From Prevotella histicola JCM 15637 = DNF00424 (lineage in GTDB: Bacteria; Bacteroidota; Bacteroidia; Bacteroidales; Bacteroidaceae), in assembly GCF_000613925.1 (NCBI RefSeq), contig NZ_BAJX01000002.1:186001-250000 (forward strand): a stretch of 64,000 nucleotides of DNA, written 5' to 3'. Position 1 is the stretch's first letter. Each line of letters starts with the position of its first letter. A program made the translations under genes and the position numbers. This document shows positions 5,082-60,588 of this stretch, in pieces. A model generated the notes under the pieces. That model did no database searches. It saw only the letters and a list, made by a program, of their open reading frames with translations, and was not told where the DNA came from.

Positions 5082-5324
5082 TGTAATATAATTTCGTAGT
5101 ACTGATTCCAATAGATGCTCTTTTGCATCCTAAAAGACGCCCTTTTGCAATTCAAAAGGGCGTCTTTTACTGTTCAAAAGGTGCCCTTTTACAATGCAAA
5201 AGGGCACCTTTTACTTTGCTGTTTGTAACCAATTGAATTTCTGATGATTACAAACTCAGTTTTTATCTGTTTTCTTTTGCTTTTCGGTCTTTTGTCTTTC
5301 GAAAAATGTAAGAGTATTTCCTTA
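5082..5324 (+). repeat. Composite 22-bp element, copy A
   Basis: Parts in order: left box TGTAATATAATTTCGTA (5082-5098); five 22-bp units (5110-5131, 5132-5153, 5154-5175, 5176-5197, 5198-5219); 2 bp; palindrome of 33 bp (5222-5254) with TTTGTAACC and GATTACAAA arms; 52-bp linker; right box TGTAAGAGTATTTCCTTA (5307-5324). The boxes are 225 bp apart in direct orientation. Neighbouring units form long hairpins, for example AAAAGACGCCCTTTTG with CAAAAGGGCGTCTTTT. It lies between the converging ferritin and uvrA genes, and the right box overlaps the uvrA stop codon. Confidence 0.9.
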
Positions 5325-8165: not shown

Positions 8166-8282
8166 TATCTGCTGAAAAATAATATAATGTATCTGTTTAT
8201 TTGGGAATAAGAACTACAAACTAAGTGCCAAAAGAGCCTCTAACATGCTGTAAGCACAAGGTTTTTGAGTTCTTATTTTATG

Positions 8283-8504
8283 TTTCTTGAATGCCTATCT
8301 ATTGGATCTTGAATATCCATTTATTGGATTTTAAATGCCAGTCTATTGATTTTTGATTATCCACGAATTGGTATTCAGAATGTCTATCTGTTGGATTTTA
8401 AATATCCATTTATTGTTTTCTAAATACCTGTCTATTGTCTTTTAACTACCTATCTATTGGTATTTAAATACCGATATGTTGTTTTCTGAATGTCTAATTA
8501 TTTG
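8283..8504. repeat. 22-bp tandem array (TATTGG type)
   Basis: Ten units of 22 bp (two are 23) with the loose pattern TTTTAAATATCCATCTATTG fill almost the whole gap between the uvrA start and the next - strand gene. The last unit runs over the stop codon at 8494-8496. Units differ at many positions but keep the period. Bases 8166-8282 hold nothing I recognise. Confidence 0.85.
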
Positions 8505-13430: not shown

Positions 13431-13673
13431 TGTAAGGATTATTCATAGTCTAAAAACCAATAGGTGCCCTTTTGCATAGTGAAAGGTGCCCTTTTACAAT
13501 GTAAAAGAGCACCTTTTGATGTGTAAAAGGGCATCTTTTGCAATGCAAAAGGGCGTCTTTTACAAGCCTATCTGTAACCTATTGATAATCTATAGGTTAC
13601 AAAGTCGGTTTTTATCGTAAATACCTTGAAATGCAGTCAATGGTGAAGTGTTATTTTGTAAATACTTTTTCAG
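13431..13673 (+). repeat. Composite 22-bp element, copy B
   Basis: Left box TGTAAGGATTATTCATA (13431-13447), five 22-bp units (13459-13568), 2 bp, palindrome 13571-13603 (CTGTAACC and GGTTACAAA arms), 53-bp linker and right box from 13657, which is poorly conserved (TGTAAATACTTTTTC). Boxes are 226 bp apart. Unit centres in order: GTGCC, GTGCC, AGCAC, GGCAT, GGCGT. It lies between the converging transporter and second uvrA gene, overlapping the end of the latter. Confidence 0.9.
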
Positions 13674-21565: not shown

Positions 21566-21806
21566 TGTAAGATTATTTCTCTTTCGGTTTTCAATACATG
21601 CCCTTTTGCATAGTGAAAGATGCCCTTTTGCAATGTAAAAGGGCATCTTTTGACGTGTAAAAGGGCGTCTTTTACAACGCAAAAGGGCACCTTTTACAAA
21701 CCTCTTTGCAATCTTTTGATTTCCAGTTGGTTACAAACCCGATTTTAAGAGGTCTACAACTGATTTGCAGAACATCATAGGGGAGAATGTGTAAGGATAT
21801 TTCTTA
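21566..21806 (+). repeat. Composite 22-bp element, copy C
   Basis: Left box TGTAAGATTATTTC (from 21566), five units (21593-21702), 2 bp, palindrome 21705-21737 (TTTGCAATC and GGTTACAAA arms), 52-bp linker, right box TGTAAGGATATTTCTTA (21790-21806). Box spacing 224 bp. Unit centres: ATGCC, ATGCC, GGCAT, GGCGT, GGCAC. This copy sits in a divergent gap (nucleotidyltransferase and tRNA-Lys), so it cannot serve only as a terminator of converging genes. The rest of 21281-22004 holds nothing else I recognise. Confidence 0.9.
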
Positions 21807-22056: not shown

Positions 22057-22129
22057 GCGCCCTTAGCTCAGCTGGTAGAGCAACTGACTCTTAATCAGTG
22101 GGTCTAGGGTTCGAGTCCCTAAGGGCGCA
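22057..22129 (+). tRNA. tRNA-Lys (anticodon CTT), copy 1
   Basis: 73 bases without encoded CCA. Acceptor stem GCGCCCT/AGGGCGC, discriminator A, anticodon arm ACTGA-CTCTTAA-TCAGT giving CTT, T arm with GGTTCGAGTCC. It reads codon AAG. The second copy is identical, 38 bp downstream. Confidence 0.97.
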
Positions 22130-22167
22130 CAAAATAGATTTCTGACCCAAATCTTTCGTTTTAGCAA

Positions 22168-22240
22168 GCGCCCTTAGCTCAGCTGGTAGAGCAACTGACT
22201 CTTAATCAGTGGGTCTAGGGTTCGAGTCCCTAAGGGCGCA
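22168..22240 (+). tRNA. tRNA-Lys (anticodon CTT), copy 2
   Basis: Identical to copy 1 over all 73 bases. Only 38 bp separate them and no promoter lies between, so both probably come from one precursor ended by the hairpin at 22242-22274. Confidence 0.97.
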
Positions 22241-22645: not shown

Positions 22646-23788
22646 ATGAGAAAGATTGTTTTTGCCATTGCATGTCTTGCACTGACGGTGCTTGGTACGG
22701 GTAATATTCAGGCGCAGGATTACATGGATGAGGCTCCGAATACGTATCGTCCGCTGCTACAGAAGTTAGGAAAAAAACTGATGAAAGACAAGCAGGGGAG
22801 CATCGTTGCGGTTGATCCTGCAACGGGTGAGGTGCTTTGTCTGGTGACAAACTCACCTGACGGGAGCAACGATGCACTTGCCATCGGTACGGCTTATCCA
22901 CCGGGTTCAACCATCAAACCAGCCCAGGCATTGACGTTTTTGTCGGAAGGTATCGTCACACCAGCCACAAAAGTAGTTTGTAAAGGTAGTTACAGAGATG
23001 GTAATATCAAGGTGGGATGTCATAAACATTACTCTCCTGAACCATTGGAAGGGGCTTTGGCAGTGTCATGTAACACGTGGTTTCTGAAGTCATACCTCTC
23101 CATGTTGGGCAATACTCGTAAATATGAAACGAAGGAAAAGGCTGTGAATGTATGGCATGATTACCTCACAAGCATGGGATTAGGTGGTCCCGTGGGTATT
23201 GATATGCCCGATGAGAAAGGCGGATTGGTTGCCAATGTCAACTATCTCTCACGTCGTTACAAGGACGGATGGATACCATCTACCATCATGTGGAATGGTA
23301 TTGGACAGGGAGATATCACTGTTACGCCGCTTCAACTGTGCAATCTCGCTGCCACAATAGCAAATCGTGGGTTCTATTATATCCCTCATGTACATAAGAA
23401 CAGTAAATCAACGCCGCTTCCTGAACGCTATCTGACACCTCGTAGGACTAAGGTTGCTGCTTCAGCCTATGGTCCTGTGATAGCTGGTATGCGCATGGCA
23501 GTGACGAAAGGTACGGCTACTGTCGTAAATAACCCTGATTATCCGGTGTGTGGAAAGACGGGTACGGCGGAGAATCCGGGCAAGGATCATTCGGCATTCA
23601 TTGGTTTTGCACCTATGGATAGACCGAAGATTGCCATTGCTGTGTACATTGAACACGGTGGTTTCGGTGCTGATATGGCTGCGCCAATAGGGGGGTTAAT
23701 CATGGAAGAGTATCTCAAAGGAAAACTCTCTAAGCCTTCATCGGAGCTTGCAAAGCGCATCGAAAAGACCAAAACGATTGAAGAATAA
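22646..23788 (+). CDS. Penicillin-binding transpeptidase
   Basis: A 380-residue exported transpeptidase that cross-links peptidoglycan peptides in the periplasm. All three active-site motifs are present: SxxK as Ser88-Thr-Ile-Lys91 in PPGSTIKP, SxN as Ser141-Cys-Asn143, and KTG at Lys304-Gly306 in VCGKTGTAENP. The N-terminus (MRKIVFAIACLALTVLG, ending IQAQ) looks like a cleaved signal peptide instead of the usual membrane anchor, and the N-terminal dimerisation/pedestal domain of class B PBPs is missing. It is therefore a minimal transpeptidase, shorter than PBP2 or FtsI (about 600 residues). It could be a beta-lactam sensor-like or accessory enzyme. Confidence 0.88.
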   Translation: MRKIVFAIACLALTVLGTGNIQAQDYMDEAPNTYRPLLQKLGKKLMKDKQGSIVAVDPATGEVLCLVTNSPDGSNDALAIGTAYPPGSTIKPAQALTFLSEGIVTPATKVVCKGSYRDGNIKVGCHKHYSPEPLEGALAVSCNTWFLKSYLSMLGNTRKYETKEKAVNVWHDYLTSMGLGGPVGIDMPDEKGGLVANVNYLSRRYKDGWIPSTIMWNGIGQGDITVTPLQLCNLAATIANRGFYYIPHVHKNSKSTPLPERYLTPRRTKVAASAYGPVIAGMRMAVTKGTATVVNNPDYPVCGKTGTAENPGKDHSAFIGFAPMDRPKIAIAVYIEHGGFGADMAAPIGGLIMEEYLKGKLSKPSSELAKRIEKTKTIEE

Positions 23789-24662
23789 TTTCTGAAATAC
23801 GCAATATCAACTCCTGAACGGCTTGATATTAGCTTTTAAACAATACAAGGTATTTTCTGAACAGCTGCATATCAGCTTCAGAAATGCCTTGCGTTTTCTT
23901 TCTAAAATACCTTCTTTTGATTTTAAAAACACTTCCGTTTGATTTCTGGATAATAACATATCACCTTTATAAATATCATGCTATTGGTTCCTAAAACACT
24001 TCCTTTTGATTTCATAAACACTTCCGTTTGATTTCTGGATAACTGTATATCACCTTTATAAATGCCATGCTCTTAGTTCTAAAATATTTCCTTTTGATTT
24101 CATAAACACTTCCGTTTGATTTCTGGATAACTGTATATCACCTTTATAAATGCCATGTTCTTAGTTCCTAAAATACTTCCTTTTAATTTTAGAAACACTC
24201 TCGTTTATTCCCTGAGCCACTTGAGATTATTCTCAGAATTACTTTCTATTGATTTAAGAAATACCATGATTTAAATTGTAAAACTACTGTTATTTGTTTC
24301 TGAAACACCACATATTTATTTTGGAAACACCACATATTTATTCTGGATACACCGCAAATTAATTTTAGAAACACCACAAATTCATTTTAGAAACACCACA
24401 AATTCATTTTGTAAACACTGCAAATTTATTTTAGAAGCACCACAAATTAATTTTAGAAACACTACAAATTAATTTTAGAAACACTGCAAATTAATTTTGA
24501 AAACACCGCAAATTCATTTTAGAAACACTGCAAATTAATTTTAGAAACACTGCAAATTAATTTTAGAAACACCGCAAATTAATTTTGGAAACACCGCAAA
24601 TTAATTTTAGAAACGCTGCAAATTAATTTTGGAAATACGTAGGAATAGTTTCAGAACAACTG
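23789..24662. repeat. Long 22-bp tandem array (about 39 units)
   Basis: Starting at the PBP stop codon, sequence of about 22-bp period runs for ~870 bp. The first half is degenerate and has a higher-order repeat near 110 bp (motifs CTTCCTTTTGATTTC, ACTTCCGTTTGATTTC, TTTATAAATGCC; visible at about 23925, 24010 and 24110). The second half (from about 24290) is homogeneous: TTTTAGAAACACCACAAATT with few changes. Nothing here is plausibly coding. Confidence 0.88.
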
Positions 24663-24794
24663 ATAACAGCCTCCCGGACGATTGCTTTTTATTTATCATA
24701 AATTCCTTATTTGCACACCAAAAAAGCACCTATCGACTTGCAATACATCAATGTTTTATAATAGGAATTATGATAAATAAGAATCTTAAAGAGG

Positions 24795-25036
24795 GTGTTT
24801 TGAGGTTGAAACGGATGTGAGTTGAATTATATAAGTATGTCTTCAGAAATAGAAAAGGATGTCTTCAGAAATAGAAAAGGATTCTGCTTAAACTGGATAA
24901 GGATGTTTTTTGAAGTATATAAGATTTTAGTTTGAAAAGGAAATGGATATGGTTTGAAATAAAAATGGACGTGAATTGAGGTGGAAAAGAATTCTGTTTA
25001 AGATGGATAAGGAGATGTTTTGAAGCGTATAAGAGC
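24795..25036. repeat. 22-bp tandem array, 11 units without indels
   Basis: Eleven consecutive units of exactly 22 bp, purine-rich on the + strand (for example CTTCAGAAATAGAAAAGGAT). Two units are identical (24839-24860 and 24861-24882); others differ at many sites. The array ends 10 bp before the terminator of the GHL10 gene. Its sequence is unrelated to the array at 23.8-24.7 kb, although the two are separated by only ~130 bp (24663-24794) in which I see nothing. Confidence 0.88.
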
Positions 25037-25045
25037 AATGAAAAA

Positions 25046-25078
25046 GAAAAAGGTGGAGCTTAAAGCTTCACCTTTTTC
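25046..25078 (-). terminator. Terminator overlapping the end of the GHL10 gene
   Basis: GAAAAAGGTGGAGCTT pairs with AAGCTTCACCTTTTTC with a single loop base. The stop codon (25060-25062) and the last Lys/Val/Leu codons lie inside the hairpin, so coding and termination share the same bases. Confidence 0.85.
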
Positions 25079-26577
25079 TTCTTTCCTGTACTCTCATTGC
25101 TCATTCTGTCTAATGCAGTAACAACAAAAACGTACTTTGTTTCACCGTCTTTGTAATCGAGTTTCAGTCTGTTGTCATACGGAATACCAATGATTTTGGC
25201 TGGATTATCCGTATCTATATCTTCACCTTTTTCGAACTTATAGACTACATAACGATGTGCTTCGTCATCCCAATGTTTTGCTTTTGGGGCTTTCCATGTG
25301 AGATAATACCCATCAGGTTCCCACTTTGCTTTCACCTTTTTAGGCTTTGATGGTGCCTTATCATCAATGAATGGCATCAAAGGTTGCAGTGCTGGATAAC
25401 GCCAATAGTCTGTTCTGAGTAGCGTTCCATAGTTTCCTGGATTGTCAACTACAGCCTTTGCGTACCAAAGAACAGTGCCACTGATGTTCGGAGACTGCTG
25501 ATGTAGTTTGCGTTTGGCAGGAAGTTGATGTGAATTAGGGTTCTGTGGATCAGCGTATTTCACTGTTCTCAACACGTCTTCTCCTATGTAAAGCGGTCTG
25601 TTTGATGCACTTTTGTTCCACCAACCAATAAGTTCTTTATAGTCAGCTGCCCTGTTTCCAATCTCCCAATATAGCTGAGGTACACAGTAATCTACCCATC
25701 CGTTGTTCACCCACTTCAGTACATCAGCATAGAGATCATCGTAGTTCTGCAAGCCATTAGTCCTACTTCCGTTCCTTGGGTCACTCTTTTGATTGCGATA
25801 AATGCCGAAAGGTGAAACGCCAAACTTCACCCATGGCTTCACTTTATGTATGGATTCGCCCAGCTGTTTGATGAAAACATCAACGTTATCACGGCGCCAG
25901 TCTCTTATATTTGTGAACCCTCTGCCATACTGTTGGAACTCTTTTTGATCGGGAATGGCAAGTCCTGCGACGGGATAAGGATAGAAATAATCGTCTATAT
26001 GCAGCCCATCTATGTCGTAACGGCTCACAATATCGTTCACAACCTGGCAGATATAATCACGATTTTCGGGCAAACCGGGATTTAATATGTACTGTCCGTC
26101 ATAAGAAAAGACACGCTCTGGATGTGTAACAGCAATATGATTAGATGCTAACTGAGTGGTATTCTTCGTCTTAGCACGGTACGGATTGATCCATGCATGC
26201 AGCTCCATTCCACGTTTATGGCACTCATCTACCATCCATTGCAGTGGGTCCCAATAAGGTGAAGGGGCTACTCCTTGCCTACCAGTAAGGAACTTACTCC
26301 ATGGTTCCAGCTTACTTTGATAGAGTGCATCACACTCTGGTCGCACCTGAAAGATGATGGCATTGACCCCATCTTTCTGTAGTTCATCCAGCTGATAAGC
26401 CAGTGTGCGTTGCATTTCACGTGTTCCCATTCCTTGGAACTGCCCGTTTACGCACTGAATCCACGCTCCTCTGAACTCACGTTTCCTTGGTTTGCTTTTG
26501 CCATTTGCCACATTGCTGACTCCTGTAAATAGTAATGTTACAAGCAAAAGTCTCAAGATGAAATGATAATGTCTCAT
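25060..26577 (-). CDS. GHL10-type glycosyl hydrolase-like protein (DUF187)
   Basis: A 505-residue exported protein of the GHL10 (formerly DUF187) family, a (beta/alpha)8-barrel group related to glycoside hydrolases. Signal peptide at residues 1-26. Family segments: REFRGAWIQCVNG, DGVNAIIFQVRPECDALY, GMELHAWINPYRAK, DIDGLHIDDYFYPYP (acidic residues likely catalytic), WVKFGVSPFGIYRNQ, and WVDYCVPQLYWEIGN. The C-terminal ~100 residues form a fibronectin III-like domain (LTWKAPKA...YVVYKF). The substrate is not established; cell-wall glycan is plausible. A paralogue lies at 33.4-35.1 kb. Confidence 0.9.
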   Translation of the reverse strand: MRHYHFILRLLLVTLLFTGVSNVANGKSKPRKREFRGAWIQCVNGQFQGMGTREMQRTLAYQLDELQKDGVNAIIFQVRPECDALYQSKLEPWSKFLTGRQGVAPSPYWDPLQWMVDECHKRGMELHAWINPYRAKTKNTTQLASNHIAVTHPERVFSYDGQYILNPGLPENRDYICQVVNDIVSRYDIDGLHIDDYFYPYPVAGLAIPDQKEFQQYGRGFTNIRDWRRDNVDVFIKQLGESIHKVKPWVKFGVSPFGIYRNQKSDPRNGSRTNGLQNYDDLYADVLKWVNNGWVDYCVPQLYWEIGNRAADYKELIGWWNKSASNRPLYIGEDVLRTVKYADPQNPNSHQLPAKRKLHQQSPNISGTVLWYAKAVVDNPGNYGTLLRTDYWRYPALQPLMPFIDDKAPSKPKKVKAKWEPDGYYLTWKAPKAKHWDDEAHRYVVYKFEKGEDIDTDNPAKIIGIPYDNRLKLDYKDGETKYVFVVTALDRMSNESTGKKKKVKL

Positions 26578-28782: not shown

Positions 28783-29023
28783 TGTAAAGTTTATTCACTA
28801 TTACAAAACAGAAGACGCCCTTTTGCATTGTAAAAGGGCATGTTTTACACTTCAAAAGGGCATCTTTTACCATGCAAAAGGGCGTCTTTTACAACGCAAA
28901 AGGGCATCTTTTACAATGCGTTTTGTAATCATCAGATACTCTGTTAGTTACAAACCCACTAACAGGACGTTTTCATTCAAAAAACAAAAGAATAGAGAAA
29001 GAAATATGTAAGACTATTTCATA
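28783..29023 (+). repeat. Composite 22-bp element, copy D
   Basis: Left box TGTAAAGTTTATTCACTA (from 28783), five units (28810-28919), 2 bp, palindrome 28922-28954 (TTTGTAATC and AGTTACAAA arms), 52-bp linker, right box TGTAAGACTATTTCATA (29007-29023). Box spacing 224 bp. Unit centres: ACGCC, GGCAT (followed by G instead of C), GGCAT, GGCGT, GGCAT. It lies between two genes on the same (-) strand; a different 22-bp array begins 14 bp after its right box. Bases 28500-28780 hold nothing else recognisable. Confidence 0.9.
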
Positions 29024-29036
29024 CACAGTAATAGCC

Positions 29037-29277
29037 CCTACTTGGAACGCTAATAAATTACATCCTATGTTGCAATACCCCCTACTTGGAATGCTAATAG
29101 ATTACATCATACGTTGCAATAGTCCCGCTTGGAACGCTAATAGATTACATCATACGTTGCAATAATTCCTACTTGGAACGCTAATAAATTACATCCTACG
29201 CTGCAATAGTTCCTACTTGTGGTTCTAATAGTTTACACTGTACGTTGCAATAGTCTGTATTGGGGATTCTAATAAAG
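29037..29277. repeat. 22/44-bp alternating tandem array
   Basis: Eleven 22-bp units (one of 21) of two alternating kinds: CTACTTGGAACGCTAATA and ACATCCTATGTTGCAATA. The two kinds align weakly with each other around CxAATAG, so the 44-bp repeat looks like a doubled 22-bp one. The array lies between composite element D and the tRNA-Asp terminator. Confidence 0.87.
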
Positions 29278-29282
29278 TACAG

Positions 29283-29321: not shown

Positions 29322-29395
29322 CGGTGTGTACGAGACTCGAACTCGTGACCTCCTGCGTGACAGGCAGGCATTCTAACCAACTGAACTAACACACC
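29322..29395 (-). tRNA. tRNA-Asp (anticodon GTC), copy 2
   Basis: 74 bases. Acceptor GGTGTGT/ACACACC, discriminator G, anticodon loop CTGTCAC giving GTC, T arm with GAGTTCGAGTCTC. It differs from the upstream copy by a compensated pair in the acceptor stem (T-A instead of C-G), keeping the stem intact. Confidence 0.97.
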
Positions 29396-29417
29396 ATGCT
29401 CTACGGGGAGGCTTCAG

Positions 29418-29491
29418 CGGTGCGTACGAGACTCGAACTCGTGACCTCCTGCGTGACAGGCAGGCATTCTAACCAACTGAACTAACGCACC
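29418..29491 (-). tRNA. tRNA-Asp (anticodon GTC), copy 1
   Basis: 74 bases, acceptor GGTGCGT/ACGCACC, otherwise the same as the copy 22 bp downstream. It is the promoter-proximal gene of the pair. Confidence 0.97.
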
Positions 29492-30098: not shown

Positions 30099-31299
30099 TA
30101 CCTTCTATTATTTCGTTTGTTGTGATGATAACATTCGGTTTTTTATGATAGAATCCTATGTGGATATTCGCCATAGGATGCGCTGAGAACTTGTCGAATA
30201 TCTCTTGATAGGTGAACATTTCGGTATCAAAAACAATGCATATCTGCTTGTTTGCATCATCATTTTGCCCCACGATGTCAGCTTCTTTATGCCAAAGACT
30301 CTCCTTATCTCCTGTGTAATACTCAGCAGAAAGGCCTTTCTCCATAGCAATATGCCTACATTGATCTGTCATTTCCTGCCCACCAAGGAACACATAGTGG
30401 GGAAATGATGTCGTATAGAAGCTATTAAAGCCAAGATATTTGCGTATAGAATAACATAATGTACGCACTAATGAGCAAGAAGCTTTGATGAAAATGGCTG
30501 TTTTAATGGGTAATCTGAGTAGTAAACTCATCCCTCCGTAGTGTTTACGGAAGAAGATAAACATTGCATCATAGAACACATGAACATATCGGAAACTTGA
30601 TTTCTGTGTGCTTTCTCCTTTGTAATGCAGGATTCGAGTGGGTAGATACCAGTTCTCATAGTTACCTTTTAACAGTCGATAGCTTAGGTCTATGTCCTCA
30701 CCATACATGAAAAAGTCCTCATCAAGTAGTCCTATACGGTCTAATGCAGCCTTGCGAAGGAAGCAATATGCACCACTTATGACTTCAATCTGTCCCGGTT
30801 TATCCCATGATAGTCCCCCCATATAATAATGTGCAAGCCTTTTGCTGGTTGGGAAACGCTTGCAAAGTCCCGTCATTTTATAGAAAGCTGTCAATGGAGA
30901 GGGCAATCCTCGTCGGCTTTCTAAGGCTTTTTCACCACAGTCATTGAGCATCTGAACACCGTGACCACCCGCCTTTGGATGGCTATCCATGAAGGAAATG
31001 GAAGTCATGATGACGTCTTCTCCCACCACAGTGTCGGGGTTTAGCAGAAGGACATACTCCCCTTTACACTGTTGAATGGCTAAGTTGTTGGCGCGTGCAA
31101 AGCCCAAATTATGTGAACTGGCTATGAAATGTGTATCTGGGAAACGCTCCTTCAGGTAGCTGACGGAGCCATCATGCGAGTGATTATCTACTACAAAAAC
31201 CTCTGCATCAATGTCTTTTAAAGCTTTATACAGACTCTCAAGACATTGCTCAAGGTAGTATTTTACGTTATAACTGACAATGATAACACTTAATTTCAT
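30091..31299 (-). CDS. Family 2 glycosyltransferase
   Basis: A 402-residue GT-A glycosyltransferase. The N-terminal domain (residues 1-240) has LSVIIVSYNVKYYLEQCLES, VVDNHSHDGS, NLGFARANNLAI and LLLNPDTVV (the DxD-like metal site), then GGAY-like ISGAYCFLRKAALDRIG and EDIDLSYRLL. This is the rhamnosyltransferase-like subfamily of inverting enzymes for cell-surface polysaccharide. A C-terminal ~100-residue extension with a hydrophobic patch (LLRLPIKTAIFIKASCSLV) may associate with the membrane. The start codon abuts a 22-bp tandem array that replaces a normal leader. It overlaps the acetyltransferase gene downstream. Confidence 0.9.
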   Translation of the reverse strand: MKLSVIIVSYNVKYYLEQCLESLYKALKDIDAEVFVVDNHSHDGSVSYLKERFPDTHFIASSHNLGFARANNLAIQQCKGEYVLLLNPDTVVGEDVIMTSISFMDSHPKAGGHGVQMLNDCGEKALESRRGLPSPLTAFYKMTGLCKRFPTSKRLAHYYMGGLSWDKPGQIEVISGAYCFLRKAALDRIGLLDEDFFMYGEDIDLSYRLLKGNYENWYLPTRILHYKGESTQKSSFRYVHVFYDAMFIFFRKHYGGMSLLLRLPIKTAIFIKASCSLVRTLCYSIRKYLGFNSFYTTSFPHYVFLGGQEMTDQCRHIAMEKGLSAEYYTGDKESLWHKEADIVGQNDDANKQICIVFDTEMFTYQEIFDKFSAHPMANIHIGFYHKKPNVIITTNEIIEGNG

Positions 31300-31300
31300 T

Positions 31301-31628
31301 CGCTTTGGTTCACTGATTTATTTCCTTTGGTCTTCTGGTTCATCCACTTTTGCCCACAGATTTATAACCTTTGGTCTAGAGATTTATCTTCTTAGGGTCA
31401 TTGATTTATAAACTTTTGTCCACTGATGTATAATCTTTGGTTTACAGGTTTATCTTCTTAGGATCACTAATTCATAACCTTTGGTCTCCAGAAATATCCT
31501 TTTAGGACTTCTGATTTATAACCTTTGCTCTGCAGATATATCCACTTTTGTCAACAGATTTATAATCATCTGCCCACAGATTTATCCTCTTTGGTCTACT
31601 GATTTATTCCTTTTGTCTTCTGGTTTAT
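31301..31628. repeat. 22-bp tandem array invading a coding end
   Basis: About fifteen units of 22 bp with the pattern CTTTGGTCTACTGATTTAT fill the gap between the glycosyltransferase start codon (31299) and the upstream gene, and continue about 45 bp into that gene, where they encode its last residues. The units on the non-coding side are the same in kind as those inside the gene, so the array is probably transcribed with the operon. Confidence 0.88.
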
Positions 31629-35115: not shown

Positions 35116-35357
35116 AACGAAATAACCTTACAAAAAAAGGAAAGGCTATGAACGCTGATTTAGAAGAAAACCGTTTAAAACCAGCTTTGTAACCCATAGA
35201 GAATCAAATAGTTACAAACAGGCTTCTAAAAGACGCCCTTTTGCATTGCAAAAGGGCGTCTTTTACATGGCAAAAGGGCATGTTTTACACTGCAAAAGGG
35301 CACCTTTTACACCTCAAAAGGGCGTCTTTTAAAAATCAATAGGGAAATGTTTTTACA
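35116..35357 (-). repeat. Composite 22-bp element, copy E (reversed)
   Basis: Same plan on the - strand: left box begins at 35357 (TGTAAAAACATTTCCCTA), five units 35330-35221, 2 bp, palindrome 35218-35186 (arms read on + as TTTGTAACC and AGTTACAAA), 53-bp linker, right box from 35132 (TGTAAGGTTATTTCGTTA). Box spacing 225 bp. Centres read on the - strand: ACGCC, GTGCC, ATGCC (preceded by C instead of G), ACGCC, GGCGT. It lies between the converging GHL10 gene and the ABC efflux operon. Confidence 0.9.
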
Positions 35358-35439
35358 TTGAAGGGGCTTTGACCGTCATTTAAGGGATCAAGCATTGATG
35401 TCGTTATCCATAAAGAAAACAGTATTCCCCCACCCCTTT

Positions 35440-42729: not shown

Positions 42730-42995
42730 TGCTTATTGCCGCTTTATTCTTTTGTCTTTTTACCTTTCAAATTGCGTTCTTAGCGTTTTACTCTTTGAGC
42801 TTTTCATCTTTCAAAGTGCGCTCTTAGCGCTTTACTCTTTCATCTTTTTACCTTTCAAATTGCGTTTTTAGCGTTTTACTCTTTGAGCTTTTCATCTTTC
42901 AAAGTACACTCTTAGCGCTTTACTCTTTCATCTTTTTACCTTTCAAATTGCGTTCTTAGCGCTTTATTCTTTTGTCTTTCTACCTTTCAAATCAT
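42730..42995. repeat. 88-bp (4 x 22) tandem array
   Basis: The block TTACCTTTCAAATTGCG recurs at 42761, 42849 and 42937 (steps of exactly 88 bp) and in part at 42981 (44 bp). Within each 88-bp unit two 44-bp halves are alike (TACCTTTCAAATTGCG and CATCTTTCAAAGTGCG). The + strand is pyrimidine-rich. Bases 42508-42729 show nothing recognisable. Confidence 0.87.
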
Positions 42996-43492: not shown

Positions 43493-43733
43493 TGTCAATT
43501 TATTTCCCTTCTTCCTTTTAATCTACGCCCTTTTGGATAGTAAAAGATGCCCTTTTGCAATGTAAAAGGGCATCTTTTGATGTGTAAAAGGGCCTGTTTT
43601 ACAACGCAAAAGGGCACCTTTTACAAGCCTCTTTATAACCTTTTGTTTATCAATAGGTTACAAAGTATGAAAAACTTGATTTCCCTTTAAAACTCACTTT
43701 CCCATAGTCTTCTTTTCGTAATATATTTTCTTA
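43493..43733 (+). repeat. Composite 22-bp element, copy F
   Basis: Left box TGTCAATTTATTTC (from 43493), five units (43520-43629), 2 bp, palindrome 43632-43664 (TTTATAACC and GGTTACAAA arms), 52-bp linker, right box CGTAATATATTTTCTTA (43717-43733). Box spacing 224 bp. Unit centres: ACGCC, ATGCC, GGCAT, GGCCT, GGCAC. It lies between the converging AraC and enolase genes. Confidence 0.9.
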
Positions 43734-52123: not shown

Positions 52124-52364
52124 TACGAAATAATCTTACAGAAAAAGAAACATGCTTACGTGAAAATAAGGGGAAATCCTTTTATTTTCGTCTTTGTAAC
52201 CTTCAGTGTTTCAAACGATTACAAAAGGCAAAGTAAAAGGGCGTCTTTTACGTTGCAAAAGGGCACCTTTTGAAGTGTAAAAGGGCATCTTTTACTTTAC
52301 AAAAGGGCGTCTTTTAGAAGTCAAAAGAGCCTCTTTTGTTTTCCCAATGTGAATATATTTTACA
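52124..52364 (-). repeat. Composite 22-bp element, copy G (reversed)
   Basis: On the - strand: left box from 52364 (TGTAAAATATATTCACA), five units 52337-52228, 2 bp, palindrome 52225-52193 (+ strand arms TTTGTAACC and GATTACAAA), 52-bp linker, right box from 52140 (TGTAAGATTATTTCGTA). Box spacing 224 bp. Centres on the - strand: AGGCT, ACGCC, ATGCC, GTGCC, ACGCC. It lies between the converging fhs and muramidase genes. Confidence 0.9.
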
Positions 52365-60347: not shown

Positions 60348-60588
60348 TTGGAAATATGTTTACAATAAATGGAAGCAGTACATCTATAAATCTATCTCAT
60401 ACTGTTAAAACCCGACTTTGTATCCTATTGTTTATCAACGAGTTATAGATGGCATTCTAAAAGACGCCCTTTTGCGTTGTAAAAGGGCGTCTTTTACACT
60501 TCAAAAGGGCATCTTTTACCATGCAAAAGGGCATCTTTTACAAACTAAAAGATGCCCTTTTGAAAATCAATAAGTAATTTCTTTTACA
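60348..60588 (-). repeat. Composite 22-bp element, copy H (reversed)
   Basis: On the - strand: left box from 60588 (TGTAAAAGAAATTACTTA), five units 60561-60452, 2 bp, palindrome 60449-60417 (degenerate, + arms TTTGTATCC and AGTTATAGA), 52-bp linker, right box from 60364 (TGTAAACATATTTCC). Box spacing 224 bp. Centres on the - strand: GGCAT, ATGCC, ATGCC, ACGCC, GGCGT. It lies between the converging TPR and barrel genes. The remainder of 60178-60706 shows nothing else. Confidence 0.88.

Follow-up and report, generated by a model that had tools for sequence, protein, structure and literature searches.

Two adjacent 22-bp tandem arrays of unrelated sequence between converging genes of a Prevotella genome

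Introduction

What keeps the length of a repeat unit the same when its sequence differs from one array to the next? The question is raised by a 1.25-kb stretch between two converging genes of a Prevotella genome, where two tandem arrays of unlike sequence share a unit of 22 bp. The window, i.e. the whole stretch of DNA analysed here (64,000 nucleotides), corresponds to 186001-250000 of a 265-kb contig. The genome has 2.95 Mb and its assembly consists of 55 contigs.

Subirana and Messeguer described bacterial non-coding tandem repeats whose unit size is constant, at 20-23 nt in individual species from many groups, and whose sequence varies (PMC8161180; here and below, as far as the accessible part of that text goes). 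The accessible part notes 20-21 nt as two helical turns and describes several families of different sequence per species, which are species-specific. Its authors proposed a polymerising protein with a role in the nucleoid, or small RNAs. Since constant-size satellites of variable sequence have been described in this way (PMC8161180), the present arrays are of an already known kind.

Structure of the two arrays

The extent of the repeats, 23789-25036, had been given in an earlier note made from the sequence alone, and it was correct within a few bases (Table 1). The lag-22 identity was 0.631 in array 1 (23789-24640; 500 dinucleotide shuffles gave a mean of 0.298 and a maximum of 0.342) and 0.593 in array 2 (24789-25036; mean 0.306 and maximum 0.385 in 500 such shuffles). 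Writing the sequence in rows of 22 bases bore out the unit numbers of about 39 and 11. The short break that had been claimed between the arrays was also found, the lag-22 identity of 24641-24788 being 0.365 (z 2.1). Array 2 is indeed of a quite different style: the unit profiles of the two arrays are unrelated (column-permutation p 0.66), and a relation as inverted kin was rejected (p 0.66). On the + strand, G greatly exceeds C in array 2 (67 G versus 12 C).

Table 1. Positions of the arrays, their neighbours and other repeats in the window
Feature	Positions	Strand	Description
Flanking transpeptidase gene	22646-23788	+	Penicillin-binding transpeptidase domain PF00905
Array 1	23789-24646	+	About 39 units of 22 bp; homogeneous consensus AATTTTAGAAACACCRCAAATT; from rows, lag spectrum and shuffles
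Array 1, higher-order part	23854-24206	+	89-bp blocks (four units + 1 bp); TRF: 4.0 copies, 84% matches
Array 1, homogeneous block	24295-24646	+	16 units; neighbour identity 0.70-0.95 for 15 scored
Break between arrays	24647-24788		142 bp, not clearly periodic; imperfect inverted repeat 24686-24701 / 24768-24783
Array 2	24789-25036	+	About 11 units of 22 bp, purine-rich; 110-bp higher-order signal
Terminator-like hairpin	25044-25080	+	21-nt inverted repeat, overlaps the end of the GHL10 gene
Flanking GHL10 gene	25060-26577	-	Glycosyl hydrolase-like PF02638
Other locus-specific array	8260-8502		22-bp period, same kind
Other locus-specific array	29030-29281		44-bp period
Other locus-specific array	31295-31615		22-bp period
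Other locus-specific array	42733-42992		44/88-bp period
Copies of the dispersed palindromic element	5105-5262, 13462-13565, 21598-21699, 28798-28919, 35228-35367, 43506-43626, 52233-52347, 60452-60566		

From left to right, array 1 consists of a degenerate part, the 89-bp zone, more degenerate units and a homogeneous run up to the break. A higher-order repeat of about 110 bp had been ascribed to this array. This was wrong: TRF gave 89 bp, which is also the top lag of 23789-24100, and it is in array 2 that 110 bp comes out as the leading lag (0.64). The homogeneous inner part described by the earlier note exists, but it occupies the right end of array 1, next to the break, and is "inner" only relative to the whole 1.25-kb stretch. 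Its degenerate outer part was recognised on the left of this block, where 14 units (23987-24294) showed neighbour identities of 0.30-0.77. Within array 1, the unit profile of the higher-order part is related to that of the homogeneous part (p 0.002). A weak candidate inverted repeat, 24 nt long and 71% complementary, flanks the homogeneous block (24298-24321 / 24633-24656).

The stretch is overlapped by 15 ORFs on both strands, 26-63 aa in length and none longer (minimum 25 aa), and 22 is no multiple of 3: the arrays are non-coding. When the whole stretch was searched against its own genome at E 0.001, it matched itself only, so that it is single copy. No palindrome was found in the units of arrays 1 and 2 (z -0.94 and -0.34). 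In array 2, a strong 5.5-bp harmonic was seen in A-tract-like triplets (share 0.63, without control).

Intrinsic curvature was not supported. With the wedge angles used, and with one track undefined for some arrays, the end-to-end ratios of arrays 1 and 2 lay within 1.4 SD of 60 shuffled controls and within one SD of 60 column-permuted controls. In addition, an 11-bp harmonic is not prominent in the locus-specific arrays. A CRISPR was also rejected: the units are contiguous at a period of 22 and there are no unique spacers.

The draft assembly itself might have produced the arrays, and among 55 contigs the unit number may be compressed. The units, however, differ by substitutions throughout, they lie in one contig between intact genes, and like arrays occur in other assemblies. 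An assembly artefact is therefore hardly credible.

Flanking genes and transcription

The arrays lie between converging genes, as had been noted. When terminator-like hairpins were scored on the + strand only, one was found (shuffles gave a mean of 0.5). Being on the + strand, this hairpin would stop read-through coming from arrays 1 and 2, and it possibly acts in the direction of the GHL10 gene as well. Rfam at gathering scores gave only tRNAs within the window and no family at the array stretch. Two tandem tRNA gene pairs are located at 22057-22240 and 29322-29491, with repeat distances of 111 and 96 bp.

A conserved neighbourhood of the arrays was rejected: the transpeptidase and GHL10 genes are adjacent in none of the 80 related loci (58 with at least 4.9 kb downstream, 68 with at least 2 kb). 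The nearest named relative returned by GHL10 was P. denticola (83% protein identity; own or very near records were perhaps omitted), and no second genome of the species was among the relatives searched, in a search from which the records closest to this genome may be missing. Among the relatives, P. jejuni has a 22-bp array downstream of GHL10, at 32-267 bp after the stop, with a sequence that seems different by eye, and P. veroralis has one at 183-260. No array was called at this place in P. denticola, P. vespertina and P. ihumii, nor in P. pallens, where masked bases are present. The position of the arrays is thus not conserved among the related loci.

One explanation is that the arrays act in RNA: they could be Rho-utilisation-like elements of the converging transcripts or part of their 3' untranslated regions. 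Both could sit in the 3' end of the transpeptidase transcript, because the only + strand terminator-like hairpin scored follows both. Seen in the direction of GHL10, array 2 is rich in C (67) and poor in G (12), and it is unstructured (fold z 0.11); array 1 read from the transpeptidase gene has more C than G (157 versus 88). However, the homogeneous block of array 1 is mildly structured (fold z -2.7), and between genes of the same direction the strand bias of the arrays was the reverse of that of a Rho site (15 arrays, p 0.022). This reverse bias, in turn, did not recur among 7 arrays of the second sample (one-sided p 0.28). A Rho-dependent terminator was not supported: the excess of C over G holds for arrays 1 and 2, but no consistent bias was found across the other arrays. 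A role in RNA seems very improbable.

The 22-bp period across the genome

Self-matches were collected in a 985-kb sample (585 kb and a second 400 kb) of the 2.95-Mb genome. On the 265-kb contig, nearly all ungapped self-matches with lags of 8-129 were within 1 bp of 22 or its multiples. The numbers of ungapped self-match segments in the 585 kb were 78 at lag 22, 77 at lag 44, 41 at lag 66, 12 at lag 88, 6 at lag 110 and 12 at lag 132. Every other lag between 9 and 132 had at most 9 segments, and the larger of these were 1 bp off a multiple of 22. The second 400 kb gave 34, 33 and 10 segments at lags 22, 44 and 66, with 2 or fewer at each of the other lags. Long arrays (at least 150 bp) outside the dispersed family A described below numbered 13 in this 265-kb contig versus 6 in the other 720 kb sampled. 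Some arrays comprise no more than two to three copies. Even outside the called arrays, non-coding DNA showed a weak lag-22 peak (z 3.9), the highest of lags 10-132; lags 10-12 and 21 were raised too in this remaining DNA, which counts against the explanation preferred below.

No clear motif common to the arrays was found when ten well-defined arrays were compared: 7 of the 45 pairs reached p 0.05, where about 2 were expected. As a separate observation, the 120 kb of contig C53 at 120001-240000 contain one family A array and no other called array; this part is possibly recently acquired DNA.

Arrays with longer periods follow the same length without the corresponding sequence likeness. Those with a period of 44, 66 or 88 are internally not much alike at a step of 22 bp (mean z 0.39 over 14 arrays, three of which exceed 1). 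Among the non-coding repeats with a period of 24-199 and no shorter periodicity, 13 of 15 were within 1 bp of a multiple of 22; the 15 are not independent, as C53 56313, 56442 and 56549 belong to one place and C54 107123 and 107495 to a second; two of the 15 overlap coding sequence by 44-49%, and 6 coding repeats were excluded. Without the two tRNA pairs (periods 96 and 111), the count was 12 of 13 (binomial 5e-10 if independent). Repeats with a period of 44-88 bp could, however, be remnants of old 22-bp arrays that have lost their inner likeness through decay.

In the relatives, the longer-period repeats near multiples of 22 were 12 of 22, and the other 10 do not fit; three loci of other families (L049-L051) were excluded from this count, and two of the repeats lie side by side in L037. 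The ratio was 11 of 21 (3e-5) when a doubled P. veroralis stretch was counted once. Repeats of lag 7 are common there as well (26 segments versus 37 at lag 22). The trend towards multiples of 22 recurs in the relatives, more weakly.

These lengths could also come from an enzyme or repair process with a 22-bp step, which duplicates any sequence and whose stagger is the period. Such a process is in keeping with periods that are multiples of 22 even without much internal 22-bp likeness, and with the arrays of two to three copies. It would, however, be expected to leave mainly fresh 22-bp duplications, not blocks of 44, 66 and 88 bp. We know of no enzyme that duplicates DNA with a 22-bp step, and this explanation is considered improbable.

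Dispersed palindromic families and related genomes

The 22-bp repeats of the genome fall into two classes, dispersed palindromic and locus-specific, and arrays 1 and 2 belong to the latter. The main dispersed family (family A) has the palindromic unit AAAAG-5-CTTTT plus a 7-bp linker. In the 585 kb, 56 of its elements were scored, and 40 of these have exactly five units. A self-complementary three-unit pattern with at most one mismatch matched the own genome 452 times, and the reversed control pattern never. Family A matched this genome 83 times on one strand and 95 times on the other; 4 of 298 other genomes of the genus had 1-3 matches and the rest none. Among the 37 non-A arrays, 8 have palindromic units at p<0.05, and two other dispersed families account for five of these; most locus-specific arrays are not significantly palindromic.

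Several side observations concern these elements. The dispersed palindromic element consists mostly of five 22-bp units with cores in either orientation, and in several copies its ends are like TTACAAACAGGCTTGTAAAAG. Its spacing on this contig is about 8 kb and more regular than expected by chance, with a CV of 0.37 versus about 1 (0 of 5000 controls of either kind); the CV was 0.53 over 585 kb, and 0.65 versus 0.89 over 985 kb (5 of 3000 controls were as even). Family A arrays show a 5.5-bp harmonic in AA/TT/AT steps (share 0.45, without control). A second dispersed palindromic family of 22-bp units, with a core like ATTACAAGGCGTCTGTAAT, is found at 27-122 of the window and at C53 8814, C52 48 and C50 17832. 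A third dispersed family, whose 22-bp units have GTGCT...AGCAC arms, is found at C54 69354, C53 34107 and 82031, and C52 16576 and 51608.

Lags of the 22-bp family occur in all six other genomes of the genus that were sampled (20-60 kb each), alongside some other lags, and in none of 60 kb from two genomes of other families in the order. Some relatives are less exclusive, with lags of 97, 90 and 81 (G026), 12 and 101 (G006) and 51 (G016). The 80 related loci comprise 31 with a 22-family segment and 49 with some other lag, coding repeats counted. With five candidates scored per genome, at least two partial matches to array 1 were obtained in 60 relatives; the two lie in G006, with 69-73% over lengths of 122 and 78 bp. 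These matches are 22-bp arrays of another unit, which occurs at two loci. The array 1 unit resembles this family weakly, in 14 and 15 of 22 bases, which 144 and 21 of 3000 shuffles reach. It should be mentioned that P. veroralis and P. vespertina share a 9.5-kb block of 95% identity (L062 4205-13728 and L063 9443-18967), compared with 84% in the GHL10 region. In P. veroralis, its ends lie 235 and 302 bp away from 22-bp arrays; the block is possibly a recent exchange.

These data bear on a neutral origin, in which the arrays descend from older 22-bp arrays, e.g. those of dispersed families; the sequence would have drifted beyond recognition and the unit length been copied by unequal exchange or slippage, with no function. 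Possible sources exist, as dispersed families with 22-bp palindromic units are present in the own genome, and with other sequences in relatives. The weak likeness of the array 1 unit to the two-locus family of G006 points in the same direction. Turnover is fast, family A being nearly private to this genome, and the position of the arrays is not conserved. The 89-bp blocks, which are made of already diverged units, show a route to longer periods. On the other side, the units of arrays 1 and 2 retain no residual palindrome, one period is common to families of different sequence, and gap events are depleted, as described below. Neutral descent is nearly as probable as the explanation preferred below.

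Gap events and substitutions

The register of the units was judged from gap events relative to substitutions. Between neighbouring units of 16 arrays of at least 140 bp, there were 951 mismatches and 33 lag changes, i.e. about 16.5 gap events; this count excludes two repeats judged coding (C53 20260 and C51 35229), arrays below 140 bp and the second 400-kb sample. Array 1 alone contributed 7 lag changes and 190 mismatches. Eleven non-coding alignments of related Prevotella-group loci gave 35 gap events and 411 substitutions; one of these alignments was entered twice (28 and 283 without the double entry), three are among L141, L145 and L150, and some are same-species pairs. Gap events per substitution are therefore about five times rarer between array units than in the alignments of related loci. 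The p value of this deficit is about 1e-7, or 1.6e-4 if all 33 lag changes are taken as separate events, in a comparison that covers the first 585 kb only and is partly biased, since the arrays were found by ungapped matching, which favours a deficit. In family A, 198 of 200 neighbouring cores are exactly at 22 bp, although the cores point either way.

Comparison with known repeats

The closest counterparts are the constant-size satellites (PMC8161180). As in the accessible part of that description, the 22-bp length is strict in both arrays and is the dominant period of the sampled genome, equal length goes with different sequence (p 0.66 for arrays 1 and 2, and many other arrays), and arrays 1 and 2 are non-coding with species-specific sequence. 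The Bacillus repeats described there have a characteristic short sequence; here none was clearly found, with 7 of 45 array pairs at p 0.05. The present arrays differ by their 22-bp unit in Prevotella, and the quantisation of periods past internal likeness and the gap deficit were measured here.

Two further systems are also to be compared. PINSR is a 188-bp dispersed intergenic repeat of P. intermedia; one strain has 177 copies and another 184, roughly three-quarters of the sites are common to both, and none was detected outside the clade by PCR; the accessible text does not describe a 22-bp period, and "22-bp" occurs in it 0 times (PMC4755523). PINSR may correspond to family A rather than to arrays 1 and 2, which differ from it in being single-copy. 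P. falsenii, a PINSR carrier, has palindromic 22-bp units in L087. BrickBuilt of Porphyromonas gingivalis is a MITE minisatellite with intergenic tandem 23-nt repeats without spacers; according to the accessible text, it is one dispersed family with a leader, a tail and inverted-repeat ends, present 19 times in one genome (PMC4596501). The present arrays are likewise intergenic and similar in unit size, but their unit is of 22 bp and they are single-copy. A BrickBuilt-like MITE was rejected, as many copies per genome would be expected.

A REP/RAYT system was rejected too: the units are not palindromic, and no Y1 transposase match was found in the genome. REP/BIME elements have palindromic units and are associated with RAYT (Y1) transposases. 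A likeness to them is confined to the palindromic dispersed family of the genome; arrays 1 and 2 are not palindromic. The Y1 transposase (PF01797) is found in 22 of 40 genomes of the genus, and there was no match in the own genome, G003 or G026. In a J Bacteriol 2020 article (e00229-20), Subirana and Messeguer reportedly name 22/44-nt and 52-nt classes in the abstract. No paper on 22-bp arrays in Prevotella was found in the one library of literature searched, and Prevotella is not named in the accessible parts of PMC6749651 and PMC8625621.

Possible origin and maintenance

The earlier note had explained the pattern of the arrays by units that are added or homogenised locally and decay at the edges. 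This stands in so far as a near-identical run lies beside degenerate units in the same register and 89-bp blocks were amplified. Local amplification of whole units thus appears well supported by the pattern. A purely local account, however, leaves the constant 22 bp unexplained; it is insufficient because this is one of many arrays of the same period across the genome and the genus.

The explanation that we tentatively prefer is that the arrays are locus-specific non-coding satellites, amplified locally, in which the 22-bp register is held by selection through the footprint of a protein. Units would be gained and homogenised locally by duplication of whole units or of several units, through slippage or unequal exchange. 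Such duplication could give rise to the 16-unit homogeneous run and to the 89-bp and 110-bp blocks, and older units would decay through substitution. Each 22-bp step, two turns of the helix, would be the footprint of a putative DNA-binding protein, which might line up along the DNA with little sequence specificity, as a nucleoid or insulator-like filament. Units that fall out of register would then be eliminated, and meanwhile the sequence would drift.

The period, the local homogeneity, the period common to differing sequences in the genome and the genus, and the scarcity of gaps come directly from computation; from them we infer that the register is kept by selection as the footprint of a putative protein. 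This filament is ranked first, with neutral inheritance almost level, because different sequences keep their length and gaps are rare. Counting against it are the arrays' want of a clear shared motif and of a curvature signal, the additional lags in the relatives, the array positions that are not conserved and the partial bias of the gap comparison.

Stepping by 22 bp whatever the sequence hints at a molecular ruler. In the widest form of this idea, the length of non-coding repeats is quantised by 22 regardless of likeness, a sequence-indifferent ruler shapes intergenic DNA throughout the genus, and the arrays are its sites of action. This seems rather unlikely; a protein filament with a 22-bp step and a duplication machine with that stagger both stay among the candidates for such a ruler.

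Bacterial satellites of fixed size and free sequence have already been described and are still unexplained. The present genome holds a dense set of them, long and short, palindromic and not, in which a test could separate amplification driven by homology from amplification driven by length. Should a protein be the ruler, the nucleoid of Bacteroidota would have a component that has gone unrecognised. If the arrays are inherited neutrally, they would be candidates for fast strain markers.
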